From a virus: a stretch of 21,401 nucleotides of DNA. Shown here one piece after another: positions 13,789-21,401 of the stretch (its first letter is position 1; each line of letters opens with the position of its first letter). The translations under genes were made by a program, and so were the position numbers. Location: the IMG/VR virus record IMGVR_UViG_3300043137_000180, positions 1-21,401 of that record; one strand, written 5' to 3'. Below the pieces are notes generated by a model. The model was not told the origin of the DNA. It ran no database searches and saw only the letters and a list, made by a program, of their open reading frames with translations.

Positions 13789-14229
13789 TCAGTAGAGACC
13801 TTTAAGGTCGGGTGGGGCGTAGTTCGGGCCCTTGGCTATTTTGCCATGCTCGTCGAAGATTGGCTTGCCATCTGCATTGTATTTTGACCAGTTGCTGCTG
13901 TTGACACGGTTGATCGCCTCAACGATGTTCATCTTCGCGCAGTGACCAACCCCCACGCCGGTAACGACCTGATCTGCAAGTGAGTCCAACAACTCTTTGC
14001 GGTTGTCGATCTGCATCTTCACCACGCCTTTTTTCAGCCCGTTGGCCAGCTTTTCCAGCGTGAACATCATGGTCGCGTAGTCTTCGGCGTCTTCGTCCAA
14101 GAACGCAAAGGACACAGAGTCGAGTCCCTCGATGAACTCTTCGATGTGGCAGCCGAACTGCACGGCTAAGTTGTCTTCTGTTGGGTGTGGACGAGCACGC
14201 TCGTGCCAGATTTTGATGATGTCATTCAT
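13789..14229 (-). CDS. MazG-like nucleotide pyrophosphohydrolase (146 aa)
   Basis: The ATG at 14229 overlaps the primase-helicase stop as ATGA, implying coupled translation. A longer in-frame GTG start at 14337 would overlap the upstream gene by 112 bases and is rejected. The sequence has the all-alpha NTP pyrophosphohydrolase signature: EEFIE at residues 30-34 (EExxE), then ELLD at 79-82 (ExxD) and a further D86. The C-terminal SSNWSKYNADGKPIF and KGPNYAPPDL are typical of phage and bacterial relatives of phosphoribosyl-ATP pyrophosphatase. Such enzymes hydrolyse (d)NTPs to monophosphates and may clean non-canonical nucleotides or alter the alarmone pool. Close linkage to primase-helicase fits a nucleotide-pool role in phage DNA synthesis. 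Substrate cannot be read from sequence. Confidence 0.75.
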   Translation of the reverse strand: MNDIIKIWHERARPHPTEDNLAVQFGCHIEEFIEGLDSVSFAFLDEDAEDYATMMFTLEKLANGLKKGVVKMQIDNRKELLDSLADQVVTGVGVGHCAKMNIVEAINRVNSSNWSKYNADGKPIFDEHGKIAKGPNYAPPDLKGLY

Positions 14230-17192
14230 GCTGCTTCTGCTCCTAAAACTGCGAGGGTTACTTTGCTTTGTGGGCGTGAGTTGGTGCCCGTCAAACTCTC
14301 TATGAATCGTGGGTGGTTGAGGTTCAGCACAACGCACTGCATCTGGCCGGGCGCATGCTTGGGACAGCCCTTGAACAGCGTAATACGTTCGCGGCGCTTA
14401 ATCAGCGCACCCTCATTTTCCAGTGCCCGCTCGATGCGGTCTAAGCCGTCGTTCTTGTGCTTGAGCCATGTGCGCAGACGTTCTGCACTGATGGATACGC
14501 AGCTGCCCGGCATGATCTGAGTCGTCGCGTCGTACACAATCCTGACACGCGCCACGGCACGCTCTGGGGCTGGCAATACAACCTGCTCGACGCCACTGGC
14601 GTACTTCTCTTTGCACTCAACCAGCTGGTCGTTGTGCTCTGCCAAGAACTGGCCGATGGTATCGAACACGTCAACCTTGTTGTCTTCAGCGAGTTGACGA
14701 GTGGCTTTGACGCGCTCAATCAGGTACTGGATGGTGGCTTTGATGTCGAACGGGAACAGGCCCAAGGCTTGACCAATGCGGCCCATGCCCCATGCAGAGA
14801 TGATGGCCGTGCGGTAGAAGCGCTCCTGCGGCTCGAACAGAAACCCGAAGGTCTTGACGAACGAGGCTTCAGCCAGCTTCCACACTTCCTCTTGGCCACC
14901 ACGTGCAATCACCACCTCGACCAGCTCGGGGAAAGCCCAGCCGTTGTTCTTGGCCATGATGTCGAAGAAGTCGTAGCCATCGCTCTTGCCATCCGCGCGG
15001 GTCTCAACGAATGTGCGGTCATGCTGTGGCAACTCCAAGCAGCGGGCCTTCAGCGGGTCATTGCCAGCCTGTGCGCCCTCGAACTTCTGGTGCAGTGAGA
15101 TGTTGGTGGTCACGAGTGTTGGGCCAGCCCATGTCGCGGGCTTACGCAGCTCACGCTCTTTGGTCATGGCGTTCTTCTCACGGCCTTGGCTCAGGATGTA
15201 GGCCATGTCAGCGATGTTGGAGTCGTCCGCAGTGGTCAACTCGTCGATCGTGCAAGGCAGGTGGTTCAGCACGCCGCGTATCTTGTACATGGCGTTGGAC
15301 GTGTCAGTCTGGCTCAGGAACAACTCTTTGGGGTTGCCGATCAAACTGTTCGCTGCGATGAGCGCTAGCGTCTTGCCTGTCGTTGTCTCTGGCGAGTAAA
15401 TGGACACCACGCATGTAGCGTTGCCAGCAGCGTTGCCGATGATGCCAGCTGTAGCCAGCAGCACAGCAGAGCGCAGCGTGTCGGTGCCCGGACGGTCGAG
15501 CATGGCCATGCCACGCACCCACTCATCGCGGTCGCCGTGAGGGGCGATCTTGTCTTTGAAGTCCGCCGCTGGGCCGCGCAAGCGCAGGTCTGAAACACCG
15601 TGTGCATGGCCGAGCACTGAAGCCCCGCACATGAACGAACCGTCTTCCTGCCAACCGAACGCCACGTAGTCAAGCCCTGTGGGAGCCTGCTGCTGCACCA
15701 TCGTCAAGTAATCCATCAAGTAACTCCTCACCTTCTCATATTGGCCAGCATGCTTCATGTAAATCTGGCGGTTGAGCAAGAACGTGGTGAACTCTTTGCC
15801 GACAGTGGCGAGCACCACCATCTCGTGTTCTTCCTCTTTCCAGCCCGTCATTGGGTATTTCACAATCAGCTTGAACGCTGACTTGCGGCTTTCTGGGTCG
15901 TTGTACATCCCAGTGATGTGCATCTCATAGGGGCTGACCAGATCGAACTCAGTCACCTCTTGCGCCACGTCGTTGCCGTTTGCGTCGGTGCTCGTGATCT
16001 CGGTCTTGACCTCACGGAACACTTGGCCGTTGTTGACCACGTAGCCCTTGGGCAGCTTGAATTCCTTGGTCTCGCCTTCTGGGGTCTCGATCTTGGTCTC
16101 AGTCACCACAGACAGCTGGGCTGGGCTGGTAATCTTCCCCTTGCTAGGACAGCCTTCGCAGCCTGCACTGCACAGCTGCTCGAACTTGGCACAGGTTGTT
16201 GGGCCCGTACCGTTCCAGCCGTTGATCTTGGCCATGTTGGCGTCGAGGTCGAAGTCAGGGTGCCCGCCAGCAATCTTGATGACAGCATCGGCCACGTCAG
16301 TTGCATGCTTGGCCAAGCCAAGGGATGCACGCCACAAGGGCTCTTCGACTTGGCGGCCAGCTGCGTCGAGCAAACCACCTGACTCGATCAACGCATGCAC
16401 TTGGTTGCAGCGCATGGCCACAGCATCAATCAGCACATCGTTGGAGTTCAGCACCGCGTCCATGATGGACGACTTCTTGCCAGAGCGACCAACGTGGGCT
16501 GGGCGAGACACCTGAGCCACTTTACCGATCCACTGAGACAGGATTGGTTTCAGGTCACGAGGGTCGTAGTCTGGGCAGTCACGCTTGCACTCGACGGGCT
16601 TCCACGGCTGTTGCTTCTTGTGGTGTGTGCCCACTGGGCGGAGCACCATCGAAGGGTCGTGAATCTTGCTGGTGTCGATCTGCACACCGTTCTCTTCGAG
16701 CGCGAGTCTGAGAGCTGTTGAGAGCTTTACCCAGTCAGCGTTCTTGATCGCCATGGTTAGCGGCCAGTAGCAGTGGATGCCTTTGCCTGACGAGATGACC
16801 ATGGGGGCTGGCATGCCGATAACCTTGAGCGCCGCAGCCATCACAGTCCAACCCTCTTTCTGGGTTGCGTAGGGCTTGTCTGGGCCGATGTCTAAGTCCA
16901 GTGCTAGAGCCTTGAACCATGTGGCCTGCTCTTGCTTTCGTGACCACTTCGCGCGGCCAGCTGAGTCAGTGAATGAGTGTCCGGCAAACGTGCCGACAGT
17001 GTAGTAAACGGTTGTTGTGGGTTCGATGTCCCACTTGGAGATTGCATTGACAGCGTCGTCGATGTTGGCAAATGAGCCACGGTTCCAGAAAATGCCACGA
17101 GGATTTTGTCCCGATGGGTCTGGCTTGTGTGTGCAGATAACCAATTCGTCGGTCTGGGCAACTATGCGAGTAAGAAAGTTTTTTGTGTCCAA
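14226..17192 (-). CDS. Primase-helicase (AEP-type primase fused to DUF927-like helicase), TTG start (988 aa)
   Basis: The N-terminal part looks like an archaeo-eukaryotic-type primase: catalytic DLD at residues 99-101 (LALDLDIG), SGKGIH at 135-140, and VLRPVGTHHKK at 183-193. A cysteine cluster C334, C341, C345, C348 (ending GCEGCPSKGKI) looks like a zinc ribbon between domains. The C-terminal half resembles DUF927-type helicases. It has Walker A SPETTTGKT (600-608, K607), with Pro in place of the usual first Gly. Walker B is in LPCTIDELT, and a sensor Asn is in LVTTN. It should prime and unwind phage DNA. The start is TTG at 17192: an in-frame TAG lies four codons upstream and an AGGGG site sits six bases before TTG. 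A terminator hairpin precedes it. No polymerase is present in the window. Confidence 0.8.
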   Translation of the reverse strand: MDTKNFLTRIVAQTDELVICTHKPDPSGQNPRGIFWNRGSFANIDDAVNAISKWDIEPTTTVYYTVGTFAGHSFTDSAGRAKWSRKQEQATWFKALALDLDIGPDKPYATQKEGWTVMAAALKVIGMPAPMVISSGKGIHCYWPLTMAIKNADWVKLSTALRLALEENGVQIDTSKIHDPSMVLRPVGTHHKKQQPWKPVECKRDCPDYDPRDLKPILSQWIGKVAQVSRPAHVGRSGKKSSIMDAVLNSNDVLIDAVAMRCNQVHALIESGGLLDAAGRQVEEPLWRASLGLAKHATDVADAVIKIAGGHPDFDLDANMAKINGWNGTGPTTCAKFEQLCSAGCEGCPSKGKITSPAQLSVVTETKIETPEGETKEFKLPKGYVVNNGQVFREVKTEITSTDANGNDVAQEVTEFDLVSPYEMHITGMYNDPESRKSAFKLIVKYPMTGWKEEEHEMVVLATVGKEFTTFLLNRQIYMKHAGQYEKVRSYLMDYLTMVQQQAPTGLDYVAFGWQEDGSFMCGASVLGHAHGVSDLRLRGPAADFKDKIAPHGDRDEWVRGMAMLDRPGTDTLRSAVLLATAGIIGNAAGNATCVVSIYSPETTTGKTLALIAANSLIGNPKELFLSQTDTSNAMYKIRGVLNHLPCTIDELTTADDSNIADMAYILSQGREKNAMTKERELRKPATWAGPTLVTTNISLHQKFEGAQAGNDPLKARCLELPQHDRTFVETRADGKSDGYDFFDIMAKNNGWAFPELVEVVIARGGQEEVWKLAEASFVKTFGFLFEPQERFYRTAIISAWGMGRIGQALGLFPFDIKATIQYLIERVKATRQLAEDNKVDVFDTIGQFLAEHNDQLVECKEKYASGVEQVVLPAPERAVARVRIVYDATTQIMPGSCVSISAERLRTWLKHKNDGLDRIERALENEGALIKRRERITLFKGCPKHAPGQMQCVVLNLNHPRFIESLTGTNSRPQSKVTLAVLGAEAA

Positions 17193-17253: not shown

Positions 17254-18162
17254 TTACTCGTCGAACAGGGAGTCGAGCTTCGCGGCCAATTCATCCGATG
17301 CTTTTACTGGTGCAACGGTTGGTTTGGCACTCACTGGTTTCGCTTGGATCGGCGCGGGACTACCTTCTTCCTCATAGGCATCGTCCACAGATTGTTGCGC
17401 TGGCGCAACAGGAGCAGCGATTGCGGCCTTTGCAGCGGGGGCTGCGAGGGCTGGGCCAGCAGACGTAGGTGCGATCTGGCGGGTAGCCACTTTCACTGGG
17501 TCGCTGTCAATCAGTGCATCAACGCGGGCGATCGCCTTCTCAGGCACGTAGCCCTTCTGCTTGAACGTGATCTTGGGGAAGCTGGCTTGGTCGTCGAAGC
17601 CCAACTCAGTCACTGCCTCTTCTGGGCCAATGCCGTAGTTGCCGAGCTCTTTGAAGTATTCACGCAGGGCTTTCATGCCGCTGACAGGCACAGTCAAGCT
17701 ATACACCTTGGTGGGGTCAGCAGCTGCTACGACAGCGAGGTGGCGCTGGTCAGCGCACATCTTCGACTTCGCACCGGAGGGCAGAATCTTGGAGCCGAGC
17801 ACGTTGTTCGGGCAGTCAGCGCAGCCATTGTGCACAGGTGCTGTCACAGATGCGTCAGGCTTCAGGCCATCGTTTGACCAGCAATCTGGGCGGATGTTTT
17901 CAGCTGATGCGTCGAACGCCTTGGCGTAGAACACCTTGGACACGCGAGGATTGGCACCCACGATGATAGTATCGAGCGTGACACCGACTGTGGTCTCAAC
18001 GCCGTCTTCGTTCAAGCGATAGCGACCAGCACGGATGCTGATGCGCGGGATGCTTGGGCCGTCAGAGACGATGGCCGAGGCGACAGCTGACTTGGTACCA
18101 GCTTGTTGACGGGCAGCGATACGTGCTGCGATGTGTGCGGGGACGGTTGCGATATTGCTCAT
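17254..18162 (-). CDS. Candidate phage ssDNA-binding protein with zinc-binding cysteines (302 aa)
   Basis: The ATG at 18162 follows AGGAG at six-base spacing. I do not recognise a named family. Residues 36-220 look like a compact beta-rich domain (ISIRAGRYRL, TTVGVTLDTIIVGANP) that contains four cysteines, C94, C114, C117 and C136, within HNGCADCPNN and KMCADQRH, probably binding zinc. Residues 225-285 are an Ala/Pro-rich flexible linker, and the protein ends with an acidic tip, KLDSLFDE. A structured core, flexible linker and acidic C-terminus, sitting next to primase-helicase, is the plan of phage and bacterial ssDNA-binding proteins. T4 gp32 also has a zinc site inside its OB fold. The assignment is an inference from architecture and context. 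A strong terminator follows the gene. Confidence 0.55.
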   Translation of the reverse strand: MSNIATVPAHIAARIAARQQAGTKSAVASAIVSDGPSIPRISIRAGRYRLNEDGVETTVGVTLDTIIVGANPRVSKVFYAKAFDASAENIRPDCWSNDGLKPDASVTAPVHNGCADCPNNVLGSKILPSGAKSKMCADQRHLAVVAAADPTKVYSLTVPVSGMKALREYFKELGNYGIGPEEAVTELGFDDQASFPKITFKQKGYVPEKAIARVDALIDSDPVKVATRQIAPTSAGPALAAPAAKAAIAAPVAPAQQSVDDAYEEEGSPAPIQAKPVSAKPTVAPVKASDELAAKLDSLFDE

Positions 18163-18165
18163 AGG

Positions 18166-18549
18166 TTACTCCTGTGGTTGAGCTTTGGGGGGACGCATGG
18201 CATGAACCACTGCGCGAAAAATAAAGTCTTTGGCTTGCTGCTCTTTAGGCAGCAACTCGAACGGGGTGATGCACGGGTGGGTCTTGAGCGCGGCGGATTT
18301 AAACTCACCGTACAACCAACCCTCAGCGAGCTTCTGTGCCATCCAGCTTTCATGGCTGGCTTCAGGGCCCACGTCGTTAAACAAGTGAAGATCGACACCC
18401 ATCAGGGCGCTTCTCTTTTGCCAGTCCTCAGCCTCTTCCCATGCAGGCTGGCTTGTGTCGCCAAGGGCTTCGCAGTACCCACGGTTGACTTCATGGCATA
18501 CACGAGCAATGTGCTCTTTGTACGCCTGAATCGTTTCTTCCTCAGTCAT
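18166..18549 (-). CDS. RyR-domain protein (127 aa)
   Basis: The start at ATG 18549 has an AAGGA site eight bases upstream. A longer GTG start at 18591 would run into the preceding gene. Nearly the whole protein is one RyR domain: ARVCHEVNRGYCEALGD (15-31), then SHESWMAQK (65-73), EGWLYGE (76-82), and the signature KTHPCITPFELLPKEQ (89-104) followed by KDFIFRAVV. The domain is named for ryanodine receptors but is widespread in bacteria and phages as small stand-alone proteins of unproven function. Here it sits between a coiled-coil protein and the ssDNA-binding candidate, with gaps of only 3-4 bases, so it is co-expressed with replication genes. Ligand sensing or interference with host defences are reasonable guesses only. 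Confidence 0.8.
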   Translation of the reverse strand: MTEEETIQAYKEHIARVCHEVNRGYCEALGDTSQPAWEEAEDWQKRSALMGVDLHLFNDVGPEASHESWMAQKLAEGWLYGEFKSAALKTHPCITPFELLPKEQQAKDFIFRAVVHAMRPPKAQPQE

Positions 18550-18553
18550 TAAG

Positions 18554-18946
18554 TTAGTCCTTTGCTTGCGCTTTGCGCAGATTGAAAACACGCGTCGATG
18601 AAAAATTCACCCCGGGTGGGGGTGCGCCGTTTGCCTCGATGTAACTCTTGACTCCGGTCTTAGATGCACGGGACTCGACCATGTCCCAAGCATTGTGTTC
18701 TGCACAAAAGCGGAAGAACTCTTCACGAGAACCCACTGTTGCTGTGTTGTGTGTTGACCAGTAACCTGTACCGGACGGCGTCTTGATGGTGTCGAGACCA
18801 TCTTCTTGCGCCTTGGCTGTGATCCAGTTTTCCAACGTCACCAGCTTCTCTGTCAACTTGGCTTTCTCAGCCTTGTGCACGCGCTCCAGCTCGTCAATGG
18901 CTTTTCGTACTTCGAGATATTTCTCGACTGCGATCTCATAGTTCAT
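18554..18946 (-). CDS. Conserved phage protein with N-terminal coiled coil (130 aa), function unknown
   Basis: The ATG at 18946 has an AAGGAG site that overlaps the upstream stop. Residues 1-50 are a charged heptad-type helix (VEKYLEVRKAIDELERVHKA, then a Lys/Glu continuation), likely a coiled coil. Residues 52-70 (DTIKTPSGTGYWST) and the C-terminal segment (SRASKTGVKSYIEA, then APPPGVNFSSTRVFNLRKA) form a small alpha/beta part. I recognise this layout from hypothetical proteins near recombination and ssDNA-binding genes of other phages, but no function is known to me. There are no catalytic motifs, cysteine clusters or membrane segments. It probably works with the SNF2 helicase or the downstream ssDNA-binding candidate as an oligomeric accessory factor, by context only. 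Confidence 0.6.
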   Translation of the reverse strand: MNYEIAVEKYLEVRKAIDELERVHKAEKAKLTEKLVTLENWITAKAQEDGLDTIKTPSGTGYWSTHNTATVGSREEFFRFCAEHNAWDMVESRASKTGVKSYIEANGAPPPGVNFSSTRVFNLRKAQAKD

Positions 18947-18957
18947 ACGTAACTCCT

Positions 18958-20511
18958 TTACTCTTCGTCACTGTTGATGCCTTGCACCAAATTCAAAAAC
19001 TCCGCGAGTGTGTTTTTCTTCGCGCGGAGCCTGCGGTATAGCTCTGCCTCGAAGCCGGTGGCCCAGATGTGCCACACAGACGTTTTGCCAGTTGTAGTCA
19101 ACCGGCGAATCCTTGCATTGGCCTGCTCGTACATTTCAAGTGAATAAATAGGTGCAAACCAAATGATGTCCTTAGCCCGTGTCAGCGTCAAACCGTGCGC
19201 AGCAACCTTGGGGTGGGCCAACAAAATCTGCGGCCTGTCCGTGTGCTGGAAGTCGTTGAATATCTGGTCACGGTCTTTCTTGCTCGTGTCTCCATTAACC
19301 ATGGCAACGTCGAAACCATCTGCGGTCAGCTTCTGCTGAAGCCAAACTTGCACACCCTTGAGTGGCACGAAGATGATCGCTTTGTCGCCGATCTCTGTGA
19401 GTAATTCCGTGAGGGTATTATACCGCTCCGAGGCATCTATGACAAGCGTAGAGCTCTCACCGTAAACGACACCACACGAAATCTGCAACAGCTTACTCAG
19501 CATCACCGCAGTGTTTGCAGCAGTGACTTCACCACCAGAGAAAATCGTGACCGCGTGGTCTTTCATCTCCTTGAACGCCTTCTCCTGCTGCTTAGTCAGC
19601 GTGGTCTTGCGGCCAACGAAGTTGGTGTCTGGCAAGTCCTTGCACTCATCAAGCGAGTAGCGGATCGACGGCTGCAATACCTTGCGGCATGTATCCAACG
19701 CATCGGGGCGCGACATCCACTTGAACGTCGTCACCTTCTGCATCACCAAGTCCTTGAACGTGGTGAAACTCTTGGGGCATGTCGGCGAGTCAACGAGTCG
19801 AGCCAACGTCCATGCGTCAGCAGGCGTCTGCGAGATCGGTGTGCCCGTCAACAACCACAGCCATGGCTGGTGCTTCTGCATCCACTTGGCGAATATCTTG
19901 TAGCGTTGTGAGCTGGGTGACTTCAGCGCGGTCGCCTCGTCGTAGATCACCACGTCGAACCCATTGAGCTCGGCGGCCATGTTCGAGAAGCCATCATGGT
20001 TGATGATGACGTACTGCACGCCCGGTGTCGCCAACAGATCAATACGCTTTTGCTTCGTACCCGTGCATACAACGAACGAGCGATGCGGCAGGTGATGCTT
20101 GAGCTCGCGGCCCCACACCACCTTCACGGTAGACAGCGGAGCGATGATGAGCACCTTACGTGCAACGCCTTCGTCCAGCAAGAAGTCGGCAGCCCACAGC
20201 GAACTGATGGACTTGCCTGTGCCCGGCGCGTTCAAACACAACGCACGTTTGTGCATGGTGAGAAAAGCTGCGGTACCCTTCTGGTGATCCATCGGCTGAA
20301 AGCGTCCGGGCCAGCTGTAGTACTCCATGATGGGTGCAGGCACATTGAACCCGAGGTTCTTCAGCACCATCGACTCATCCACACCGTAAGGCATGGCCAG
20401 CATCTCTTCACCGTTGTGGGTGAACTTCTTTGCGTGTGGGATCACCTGCGCAACAGCGTCGTTCTCGCTGCTGTTGATGATGATCTTGCGCTTGTCAGGA
20501 ATTACTAGCAT
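18958..20511 (-). CDS. SNF2-type DEAD/DEAH-box helicase (517 aa)
   Basis: This is an ATP-driven DNA translocase of superfamily 2. The motifs appear in order: Walker A APGTGKS (95-101), motif Ia VLIIAPLSTVKVVW (120-133), a DEAT variant of the DEAH box at 191-194, motif III LTGTP (221-225), and in the second RecA-like lobe IIFVPLKGVQVWL (379-391), LLAHPKVAAHGLTL (430-443, motif V) and QANARIRR (463-470, motif VI). At about 500 residues it is the compact phage form without accessory domains. Its ATG lies 17 bases inside the VRR-NUC gene. Phage SNF2 proteins commonly neighbour VRR-NUC and Cas4/RecB-like nucleases and are thought to serve recombination, replication or genome protection. Catalytic residues look complete. 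Confidence 0.85.
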   Translation of the reverse strand: MLVIPDKRKIIINSSENDAVAQVIPHAKKFTHNGEEMLAMPYGVDESMVLKNLGFNVPAPIMEYYSWPGRFQPMDHQKGTAAFLTMHKRALCLNAPGTGKSISSLWAADFLLDEGVARKVLIIAPLSTVKVVWGRELKHHLPHRSFVVCTGTKQKRIDLLATPGVQYVIINHDGFSNMAAELNGFDVVIYDEATALKSPSSQRYKIFAKWMQKHQPWLWLLTGTPISQTPADAWTLARLVDSPTCPKSFTTFKDLVMQKVTTFKWMSRPDALDTCRKVLQPSIRYSLDECKDLPDTNFVGRKTTLTKQQEKAFKEMKDHAVTIFSGGEVTAANTAVMLSKLLQISCGVVYGESSTLVIDASERYNTLTELLTEIGDKAIIFVPLKGVQVWLQQKLTADGFDVAMVNGDTSKKDRDQIFNDFQHTDRPQILLAHPKVAAHGLTLTRAKDIIWFAPIYSLEMYEQANARIRRLTTTGKTSVWHIWATGFEAELYRRLRAKKNTLAEFLNLVQGINSDEE

Positions 20512-20806
20512 TTAAGGCCACCCACGCTTTGAACTCCAGCACCCATAGATCGACGTTCGTTTCTCTCACGATCCATACTTCCGCACCTGCGTGCGTCGCC
20601 GCATTGATCTCACGGTTCTGGTTAGCAGTTGTGACACCTTTTCCAAACTTAGTTTCAACAGCAAATGCGTGACCATTAACGCACCCAACAAAGTCAGGAA
20701 TACCAGACCTACCAAAGCCATTAGCAGGTGGCATAAACCACCAACACCTTTCAGTGTCTTTGAGGACAGCTTTGACAATCTTCTTGACATCTTCTTCTTT
20801 CTTCAT
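20495..20806 (-). CDS. VRR-NUC domain nuclease (103 aa)
   Basis: The start overlaps the upstream nuclease stop as ATGA, with an AAAGG site before it. The protein is essentially a minimal VRR-NUC (PD-(D/E)XK) domain: GRSGIPDFVG (32-41, catalytic D38), then AVETKFGKG (49-57, with E51 and K53 as the ExK pair) and a conserved Q63 in ANQNREI. The short helix before the core carries the usual Trp/Pro segment (WWFMPPANGFG). Phage versions of this size probably act on branched or flapped DNA, like the eukaryotic FAN1 nuclease domain, but only as partners of other proteins. It is sandwiched, with overlaps on both sides, between a RecB/Cas4-like nuclease and the SNF2 helicase, so a combined DNA-processing unit is likely. 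Confidence 0.85.
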   Translation of the reverse strand: MKKEEDVKKIVKAVLKDTERCWWFMPPANGFGRSGIPDFVGCVNGHAFAVETKFGKGVTTANQNREINAATHAGAEVWIVRETNVDLWVLEFKAWVALNASNS

Positions 20807-21401
20807 CGCTTACCTTTCAGTCGTGCGTCAGGGCAGAACCCTTTCGCTGGGCACCATGGGCACAGGCCCGATGGCTTGGTCTTGAACACGCCGAGGTCAA
20901 TCACCTCTTGCACCATATCGAATCGTGGCTCCAGTGCACGCCACAGCGCGCCAAGGTAGCGGCGCTCATACTTCGCGTTTGTCACCTCGTCGAACTTCAA
21001 CCAGATGAACGATGTCTTCACGGTGTTTACCTGTGGGTAATGCCACATCACCATGGCTGCGAACAACTGCAACTGTGTTGGGTTCTCTTTCACTTTGCCT
21101 GTCTTGTAGTCAAGGCAGTACGCGGTGTCACCGTCAACGACCAGCACGTCAGCGATGGAGCGAATCCACACGTCTTTGGCGAACCAGTCAACGGGCTGCA
21201 ACTGACGGTTAACAGCCATCTGATGCTCGAACAACTTCTCACCGTTGCGTGACGTTATCTTCTGCACCAGTGGGCCCCAGCGCTCAAGTGATTGTTTGCT
21301 CTCAAGCGAATCCTCCAGCGCGATACATGCCTCAGTAGCTTCTTTGCCAGCAACCATCGCATTGCCGTAGGCTTCGAGCACTTTGTGCACACGGTCGCCA
21401 T
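20803..21401 (-). CDS. RecB/Cas4-like PD-(D/E)XK exonuclease (5' end outside window)
   Basis: The frame stays open to the window edge, reading GDRVHKVLEAYG at the border. The His of that stretch fits the conserved G-x-x-x-H motif of the RecB family, so the real start lies beyond 21401 and the in-frame GTG at 21390 is not it. Counting from that GTG, the nuclease core is I79-A-D81, then CLDYKTGK with D94-x-K96, followed by QLQLF (106-110), a match to the QxxxY-like helix. The C-terminus has LCPWCPAKGFCP with C177, C180 and C186, three ligands of the iron-sulfur cluster of Cas4/AddB-type nucleases. The fourth Cys is expected in the missing N-terminus. It is likely a DNA exonuclease for recombination or end processing, coupled by ATGA to the VRR-NUC gene. 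Confidence 0.75.
   Translation of the reverse strand, partial: GDRVHKVLEAYGNAMVAGKEATEACIALEDSLESKQSLERWGPLVQKITSRNGEKLFEHQMAVNRQLQPVDWFAKDVWIRSIADVLVVDGDTAYCLDYKTGKVKENPTQLQLFAAMVMWHYPQVNTVKTSFIWLKFDEVTNAKYERRYLGALWRALEPRFDMVQEVIDLGVFKTKPSGLCPWCPAKGFCPDARLKGKR

Follow-up and report, generated by a model that had tools for sequence, protein, structure and literature searches.

A described relative of the protein studied here is RyDEP, the 138-aa gp78 of Mycobacterium phage DyoEdafos. According to the main text of a May 2026 preprint (PMC13232231), RyDEP hydrolyzes the Thoeris signals 2′- and 3′-cADPR to ADPR and defeats Thoeris. It adopts the Repeat12 fold with a pocket consisting of H75, W78, H100, and D117, of which H75 and D117 are the catalytic pair, and Q54 was mutated as an active-site residue. 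The same text covers eight phage homologs, described as highly conserved in sequence; six bind 2′/3′cADPR, two show no binding, and none cleaves. Homologs from a Ruegeria phage (H4) and a Pectobacterium phage (H7) are reported as nanomolar sponges that prefer 3′cADPR and defeat Thoeris in vivo. A second described family, Acb4 (PF13876), is an anti-CBASS sponge with 3′3′-cGAMP as its published ligand in the main text of its own preprint (PMC11722364). In a literature search that covered mostly journals open without subscription, partly at the level of abstracts, we found no other paper that assigns a function to a phage RyR protein. The original prediction held that phage proteins of this type lack any known function; the publication of RyDEP has overtaken that statement. 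The protein described below is of an already known kind and adds a member to a family with a published function.

The window, meaning the entire 21,401-base IMG/VR record, contains a single RyR match. The gene lies on the minus strand from an ATG at 18549 to a stop codon that ends at 18166 and encodes 127 aa, with its assignment based on Pfam PF02026, a structure model, and sequence comparison. Reading 18166–18549 on the plus strand yields no RyR protein. A likely Shine-Dalgarno sequence, AAAGGA (18558–18563, minus strand), is positioned 8 bp 5′ of the ATG within the 3′ end of the upstream gene. Because this is a good ribosome site, a longer, GTG-started reading of 141 aa is unnecessary and was ruled out. 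When compared with four relatives, the gene gave dN/dS values of 0.08–0.18, about 0.1, and is therefore a working gene under purifying selection. Several relatives (L005, L009–L014, L044, and L068) appeared to carry internal stops; these were traced to tblastn read-through beyond the true stop, and the genes are unbroken. A PADLOC scan of six proteins, including the RyR protein, returned nothing for the latter.

The match to PF02026 scored 41.4 bits, above the cut-off of 27.4, and spans residues 62–108 only, and PHROG families with no assigned function cover residues 8–126. We modeled the protein as a monomer with AlphaFold2 from a 44-row alignment, which gave a pLDDT of 92.0 and four helices (residues 3–28, 42–57, 62–75, and 102–118). 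The best match among solved folds was human RyR3 Repeat12 with AMP-PCP (9l91; Z 10.0, 123 residues, rmsd 3.0), with the alignment running from residue 4 to 126. Next came 6uhi, a Bacteroides/human Repeat12 chimera, at Z 9.8, and the first unrelated fold followed at Z 6.1. Helical folds can give middling Z scores by chance, yet the assignment is settled because the sequence match to 6uhi has an E value of 5e-19. The RyDEP structure, 35tm, whose sequence is that of DyoEdafos gp78, was absent from the fold-search results, which drew on a structure library to April 2026; it matched the window protein by sequence with an E value of 1.6e-8. The original prediction had placed a RyR-domain protein of 127 aa at these positions and proposed that the domain takes up the whole chain with its signature residues intact. 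The Pfam score and the model agree on the first point, with the strand being minus, and the model and its Repeat12 alignment bear out the second, such that the protein would be one RyR domain from end to end. The last point holds as well: the ligand residues named for RyDEP are all present, as H66, W69, H91, and D108 (RyDEP H75, W78, H100, and D117, respectively).

These four residues are unchanged in all of the best 80 IMG/VR relatives and do not vary in the 44-row alignment, which includes RyDEP. Our 80-relative sets are the best of 108 and of 172 candidates, and counts from them apply to the branch around the window and not to phages in general. Among 17 RyR proteins from named phages, again with RyDEP, both His residues occur in 17, and Trp and Asp in 16 each. 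The RyR protein of Pectobacterium phage phiA41 carries Arg at the position of the pocket Trp. While the fold and ligand pocket are shared with RyR3 Repeat12 (Z 10), the latter is a tandem repeat within a giant calcium channel of animals, whereas the phage protein has the size of a single repeat and presumably dimerizes. A member of the RyDEP family would be expected to form a homodimer via helices 1 and 4; ours was modeled as a monomer. Since human Repeat12 structures hold AMP-PCP, ADP, and ATP, the pocket is a general adenine-nucleotide site, and the window protein could be a sponge for something other than 2′/3′cADPR, for instance a different ADP-ribose derivative made by another type of Thoeris, or a nucleotide signal of CBASS or Pycsar. 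The two homologs with no 2′/3′cADPR binding (main text of PMC13232231) and the several signals targeted by the sponge families that neighbor RyR genes (main text of PMC11722364) are in keeping with such a ligand. However, all four cADPR-contact residues (H, W, H, and D) are intact, and we regard a different nucleotide as unlikely.

The next comparison concerns whether the signal would be bound or cut. Like the window protein, RyDEP is a small single domain of the PF02026/Repeat12 type with an H/W/H/D pocket, and its catalytic pair is preserved as H66 and D108, as would be expected if the window protein were a glycosidase that cuts 2′/3′cADPR to linear ADPR. The two proteins, however, are only 26% identical in our alignment, and they differ at the position of Q54. 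This position is Gln in 12 of 12 RyDEP-clade rows; in the window protein it is S47 or A48, owing to a one-residue slip between two alignments. One Pectobacterium and one Ruegeria phage RyR protein that we examined also have no Gln there, although these may differ from the proteins tested in PMC13232231. We infer that Q54 is the residue dividing enzyme from sponge. When 89 distinct domain sequences were placed on a tree, 10 of them formed the RyDEP clade, which split off with support of 100/100, and the window protein fell outside it with the remaining rows, including the Pectobacterium and Ruegeria phage proteins; the branch that holds it has 71 rows. The group of eight to which it belongs is firmly supported (100/97), in a tree that is built on a short alignment and has several long branches of unsure placement.

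NAPRTase (PF04095), a marker of NARP1, was found in 4 of 11 RyDEP-clade records, one of them DyoEdafos itself, where this NARP1-like gene is the partner of the glycosidase. It was found in none of nine window-type records, which are fragments or uncertain in completeness. No Adps/Namat-type genes of NARP1 were present among ten window proteins scanned with Pfam, and thus no NARP1 genes were found beside the RyR gene. Because Q54 is absent, the protein lies outside the RyDEP clade, and NAPRTase is missing from all nine window-type records, we predict from these sequence comparisons that the protein is a sponge and not an enzyme. Together with the published result that none of the eight homologs cleaves (main text of PMC13232231), this leaves glycosidase activity improbable. 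On the tree, the window protein shares its side with RyR proteins of Ruegeria and Pectobacterium phages, which may differ from H4 and H7, and it is ∼49–58% identical to such proteins, none of those compared having Gln at Q54. Unlike the window protein, the Pectobacterium phage proteins are extended at the N terminus; in L160 and L161 it is ∼65 aa long, and in L160 it has no Pfam match. Some deposited names in this family seem mistaken, including “Anti-CRISPR protein” for a RyR-domain protein of Pseudomonas phage D14S (L166:2986–3858) and “alanyl-tRNA synthetase” for other Pseudomonas phage copies.

The RyR gene sits in a replication operon that lies on the minus strand throughout. Reading in the direction of transcription, a PD-(D/E)XK exonuclease (20803–21390; Pfam and PHROG) is followed by a VRR-NUC-like endonuclease (20495–20806; PHROG endonuclease at 1.3e-12, Pfam below cut-off), a SNF2-type DNA helicase (18958–20511; Pfam and PHROG), and a 130-aa gene (18554–18946). 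The RyR gene comes next, then a 302-aa gene (17254–18162) that matches only PHROGs with no function, and a primase/helicase-type protein with DUF927 (14226–17192, start uncertain; Pfam and PHROG). The tight packing noted in the original prediction is evident, with gaps of 4 bp to the 130-aa gene and 3 bp to the 302-aa gene. Its names for these two neighbors, a coiled-coil protein and a probable ssDNA-binding protein, did not find support, as neither has a Pfam match above cut-off. The PHROG label of the 130-aa gene, “minor head protein,” looks wrong for a gene in a replication operon. The nearest named phages are only 22–35% identical at two operon genes and are therefore too distant to name a host.

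The 130-aa and 302-aa genes form the left and right edges of a slot for a single gene. We measured the space between the two genes in the 80 IMG/VR loci that best match the 302-aa gene. The slot was empty (2–7 bp) in 48 loci and held RyR in 12, Acb4 in 4, and other genes in 16. The four Acb4 occupants belong to Phage_gp49_66 (PF13876), two by Pfam and all four by a home-made HMM. Grouping these loci by their 302-aa gene at a 95% identity level gave 45 groups, of which 28 were empty, eight held other genes, four RyR, and three Acb4. The two remaining groups were mixed, one with empty slots and other genes and one with RyR, empty slots, and other genes. In the latter, L090 and L094, which carry RyR, differ from L089, which is empty, by the insert; on the upstream side the 127 bp that are available show 100% identity, and on the downstream side identity is 99% over 2,000 bp. 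L091 has a 78-aa gene in the slot, and its flanks match those of L090 at 96.8% and 99.5% identity. Because 48 of these 80 loci have nothing in the slot, among them phages whose flanks are 99% identical, the RyR gene is dispensable; it is accessory cargo that is gained and lost.

A short direct repeat marks both edges of the insert. One copy (18553–18574, minus strand) is at the upstream slot edge in the tail of the 130-aa gene and the other (18165–18186, minus strand) is in the tail of the RyR gene. The copies match at 18 of 22 positions, and none of 200,000 random operon pairs was as good; the other gene ends of the operon match the repeat at 6–10 of 22 positions. Some likeness is expected, since the repeat holds a ribosome site and a stop. 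Recombination between the copies is a plausible, if unproven, way into and out of the slot. In three distant phages (L047, L048, and L062), RyR is 71–73% identical to the window gene and stands ahead of the same downstream gene. Since the helicase is only 39% and the downstream gene 34% identical in these phages, the comparison suggests that the RyR gene moved between lineages.

We next considered which genes accompany RyR elsewhere. Among the 80 best IMG/VR RyR loci, Acb4 was fused to RyR or within 203 bp of it, always on the same strand, in 21 loci, corresponding to 16 of 51 non-redundant groups. For full-contig HMM searches, we left out L003, whose gene is identical to that of the window, which gave 50 non-redundant RyR records. 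All 50 matched RyR, and the searches returned 15 hits to Acb4, 3 to Tad2, and 11 to the Acb2/Tad1 hairpin (10 over cut-off). Nearly all of these 29 sponge-family hits are close to the RyR match, 27 at no more than 600 bp, and 28 share its strand. When hits were placed at random, a mean of 3.0 came within that distance, with a maximum of 10 in 20,000 trials that are not independent, since the records are related to each other. An over-cut-off Acb4, Tad2, or Acb2/Tad1 match is found within 600 bp of RyR in 22 of 50 records; the sub-cut-off Acb2/Tad1 hit in L049 counts among the 29 hits and not among these 22. Three families occur in a row as Acb2/Tad1, RyR, and Acb4 (L026 and L031), as Tad2, Acb4, and RyR (L057), and as Tad2, RyR, and Acb4 (L021). 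Acb4-RyR fusions are encoded by Salmonella phage Det7 (gp42), Vibrio phages 1.151.O and FGH, and records L055, L070, and L054, and one 267-aa open frame joins an Acb2/Tad1 hairpin to RyR (L074:1316–2116). No Acb4, Tad2, or Acb2/Tad1 was found in the contigs of the closest relatives of the window (L004, L005, L007, and L012). From the Acb4 side, RyR lies within 4 kb in 4 of 80 loci, all of them fusions close to the query; hence, the association is strong only when RyR is the starting point and weak in the reverse direction. Three fusions, L172:2449–3321 (Det7 gp42), L164:2671–3327, and L165:2671–3339, are annotated as hypothetical or “ryanodine receptor,” and Salmonella phages SFP10, SeTs-2, and Mansal have proteins that match Det7 gp42 over its full length.

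The main text of the RyDEP preprint (PMC13232231) makes no mention of Acb4 and that of the Acb4 preprint (PMC11722364) none of RyR; the only paper we found in which both appear is unrelated. Judged from main texts, we found no earlier description of the slot, of the clustering of RyR with three other sponge families, or of the fusion proteins.

A role outside anti-defense, such as an ATP/ADP sensor or a part in phage NAD+ metabolism or replication, would suit the placement of the gene in a replication operon and the binding of adenine nucleotides by the domain in animals. Against it stand the 48 of 80 best related loci that do without a gene in the slot, some with 99% identical flanks, and the clustering of RyR genes with sponge families, and we consider such a role highly improbable. 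Instead, the published binding by six of eight homologs, the intact pocket, and the clustering with sponge families support a sponge. The guess in the original prediction of a protein that sequesters a ligand such as an ADP-ribose derivative and counters defense agrees with these gene neighborhoods and with the homolog data in the main text of PMC13232231.

We therefore favor, as the probable explanation, that the gene encodes a sponge-type member of the RyDEP family directed against Thoeris, which binds 2′/3′cADPR without cutting it and is carried as swappable cargo. The protein would bind cADPR with a preference for 3′cADPR, dimerize, and not cleave, and the host would have Thoeris. On infection, the Thoeris TIR enzyme would make a cyclic ADP-ribose signal from NAD+. 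The RyR protein, made from the phage replication operon and probably dimeric, would bind 2′- or 3′-cADPR such that the Thoeris effector stays off, with the signal probably left uncut. Its gene is cargo in a single-gene slot flanked by two core genes of the operon, with gain and loss possibly via the short edge repeats.

In our view, the surroundings of the gene matter more than the window protein itself, as three sponge families are clustered with or fused to RyR. The clustering and fusions back the claim of the preprint (main text of PMC13232231) from genomics alone and predict proteins that block two immune signals. L090 and L094 versus L089 are natural matched phages that show the RyR gene to be cargo and suggest a comparison of its benefit. 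Acb4 is unrelated to RyR, with a different published ligand (3′3′-cGAMP; main text of PMC11722364), yet it occupies this slot at 4 of the 80 best related loci and elsewhere is fused or adjacent to RyR. The slot may thus be a plug-in site for anti-signal genes at which RyR (cADPR) and Acb4 (cyclic dinucleotide) alternate as interchangeable modules of sponge cassettes, a proposal that could as readily prove wrong as right. If it holds, Acb4-RyR and Acb2/Tad1-RyR fusions should disarm Thoeris and CBASS together, and the 78-aa slot occupants should be new anti-defense families.

The slot also offers a route to further anti-defense genes, by way of the proteins that occupy it in place of RyR or Acb4. 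A 78-aa family that starts with MKR in L091 and ends with DSNP replaces RyR in L091, L095, L096, L097, L127, L131, and L151, and we regard it as a candidate anti-defense gene; only 10 relatives were found in IMG/VR. In L084, a protein of this family is next to RyR. A second family of 78–87 aa, starting with MSKPDIG in L126, occupies the slot in L126, L128, L129, L130, and L154. The occupants of 63–87 aa have no Pfam match above cut-off and no PHROG match. The slot of L083 holds an HNH_3 endonuclease with an AP2-like part, as expected of a homing-type gene.
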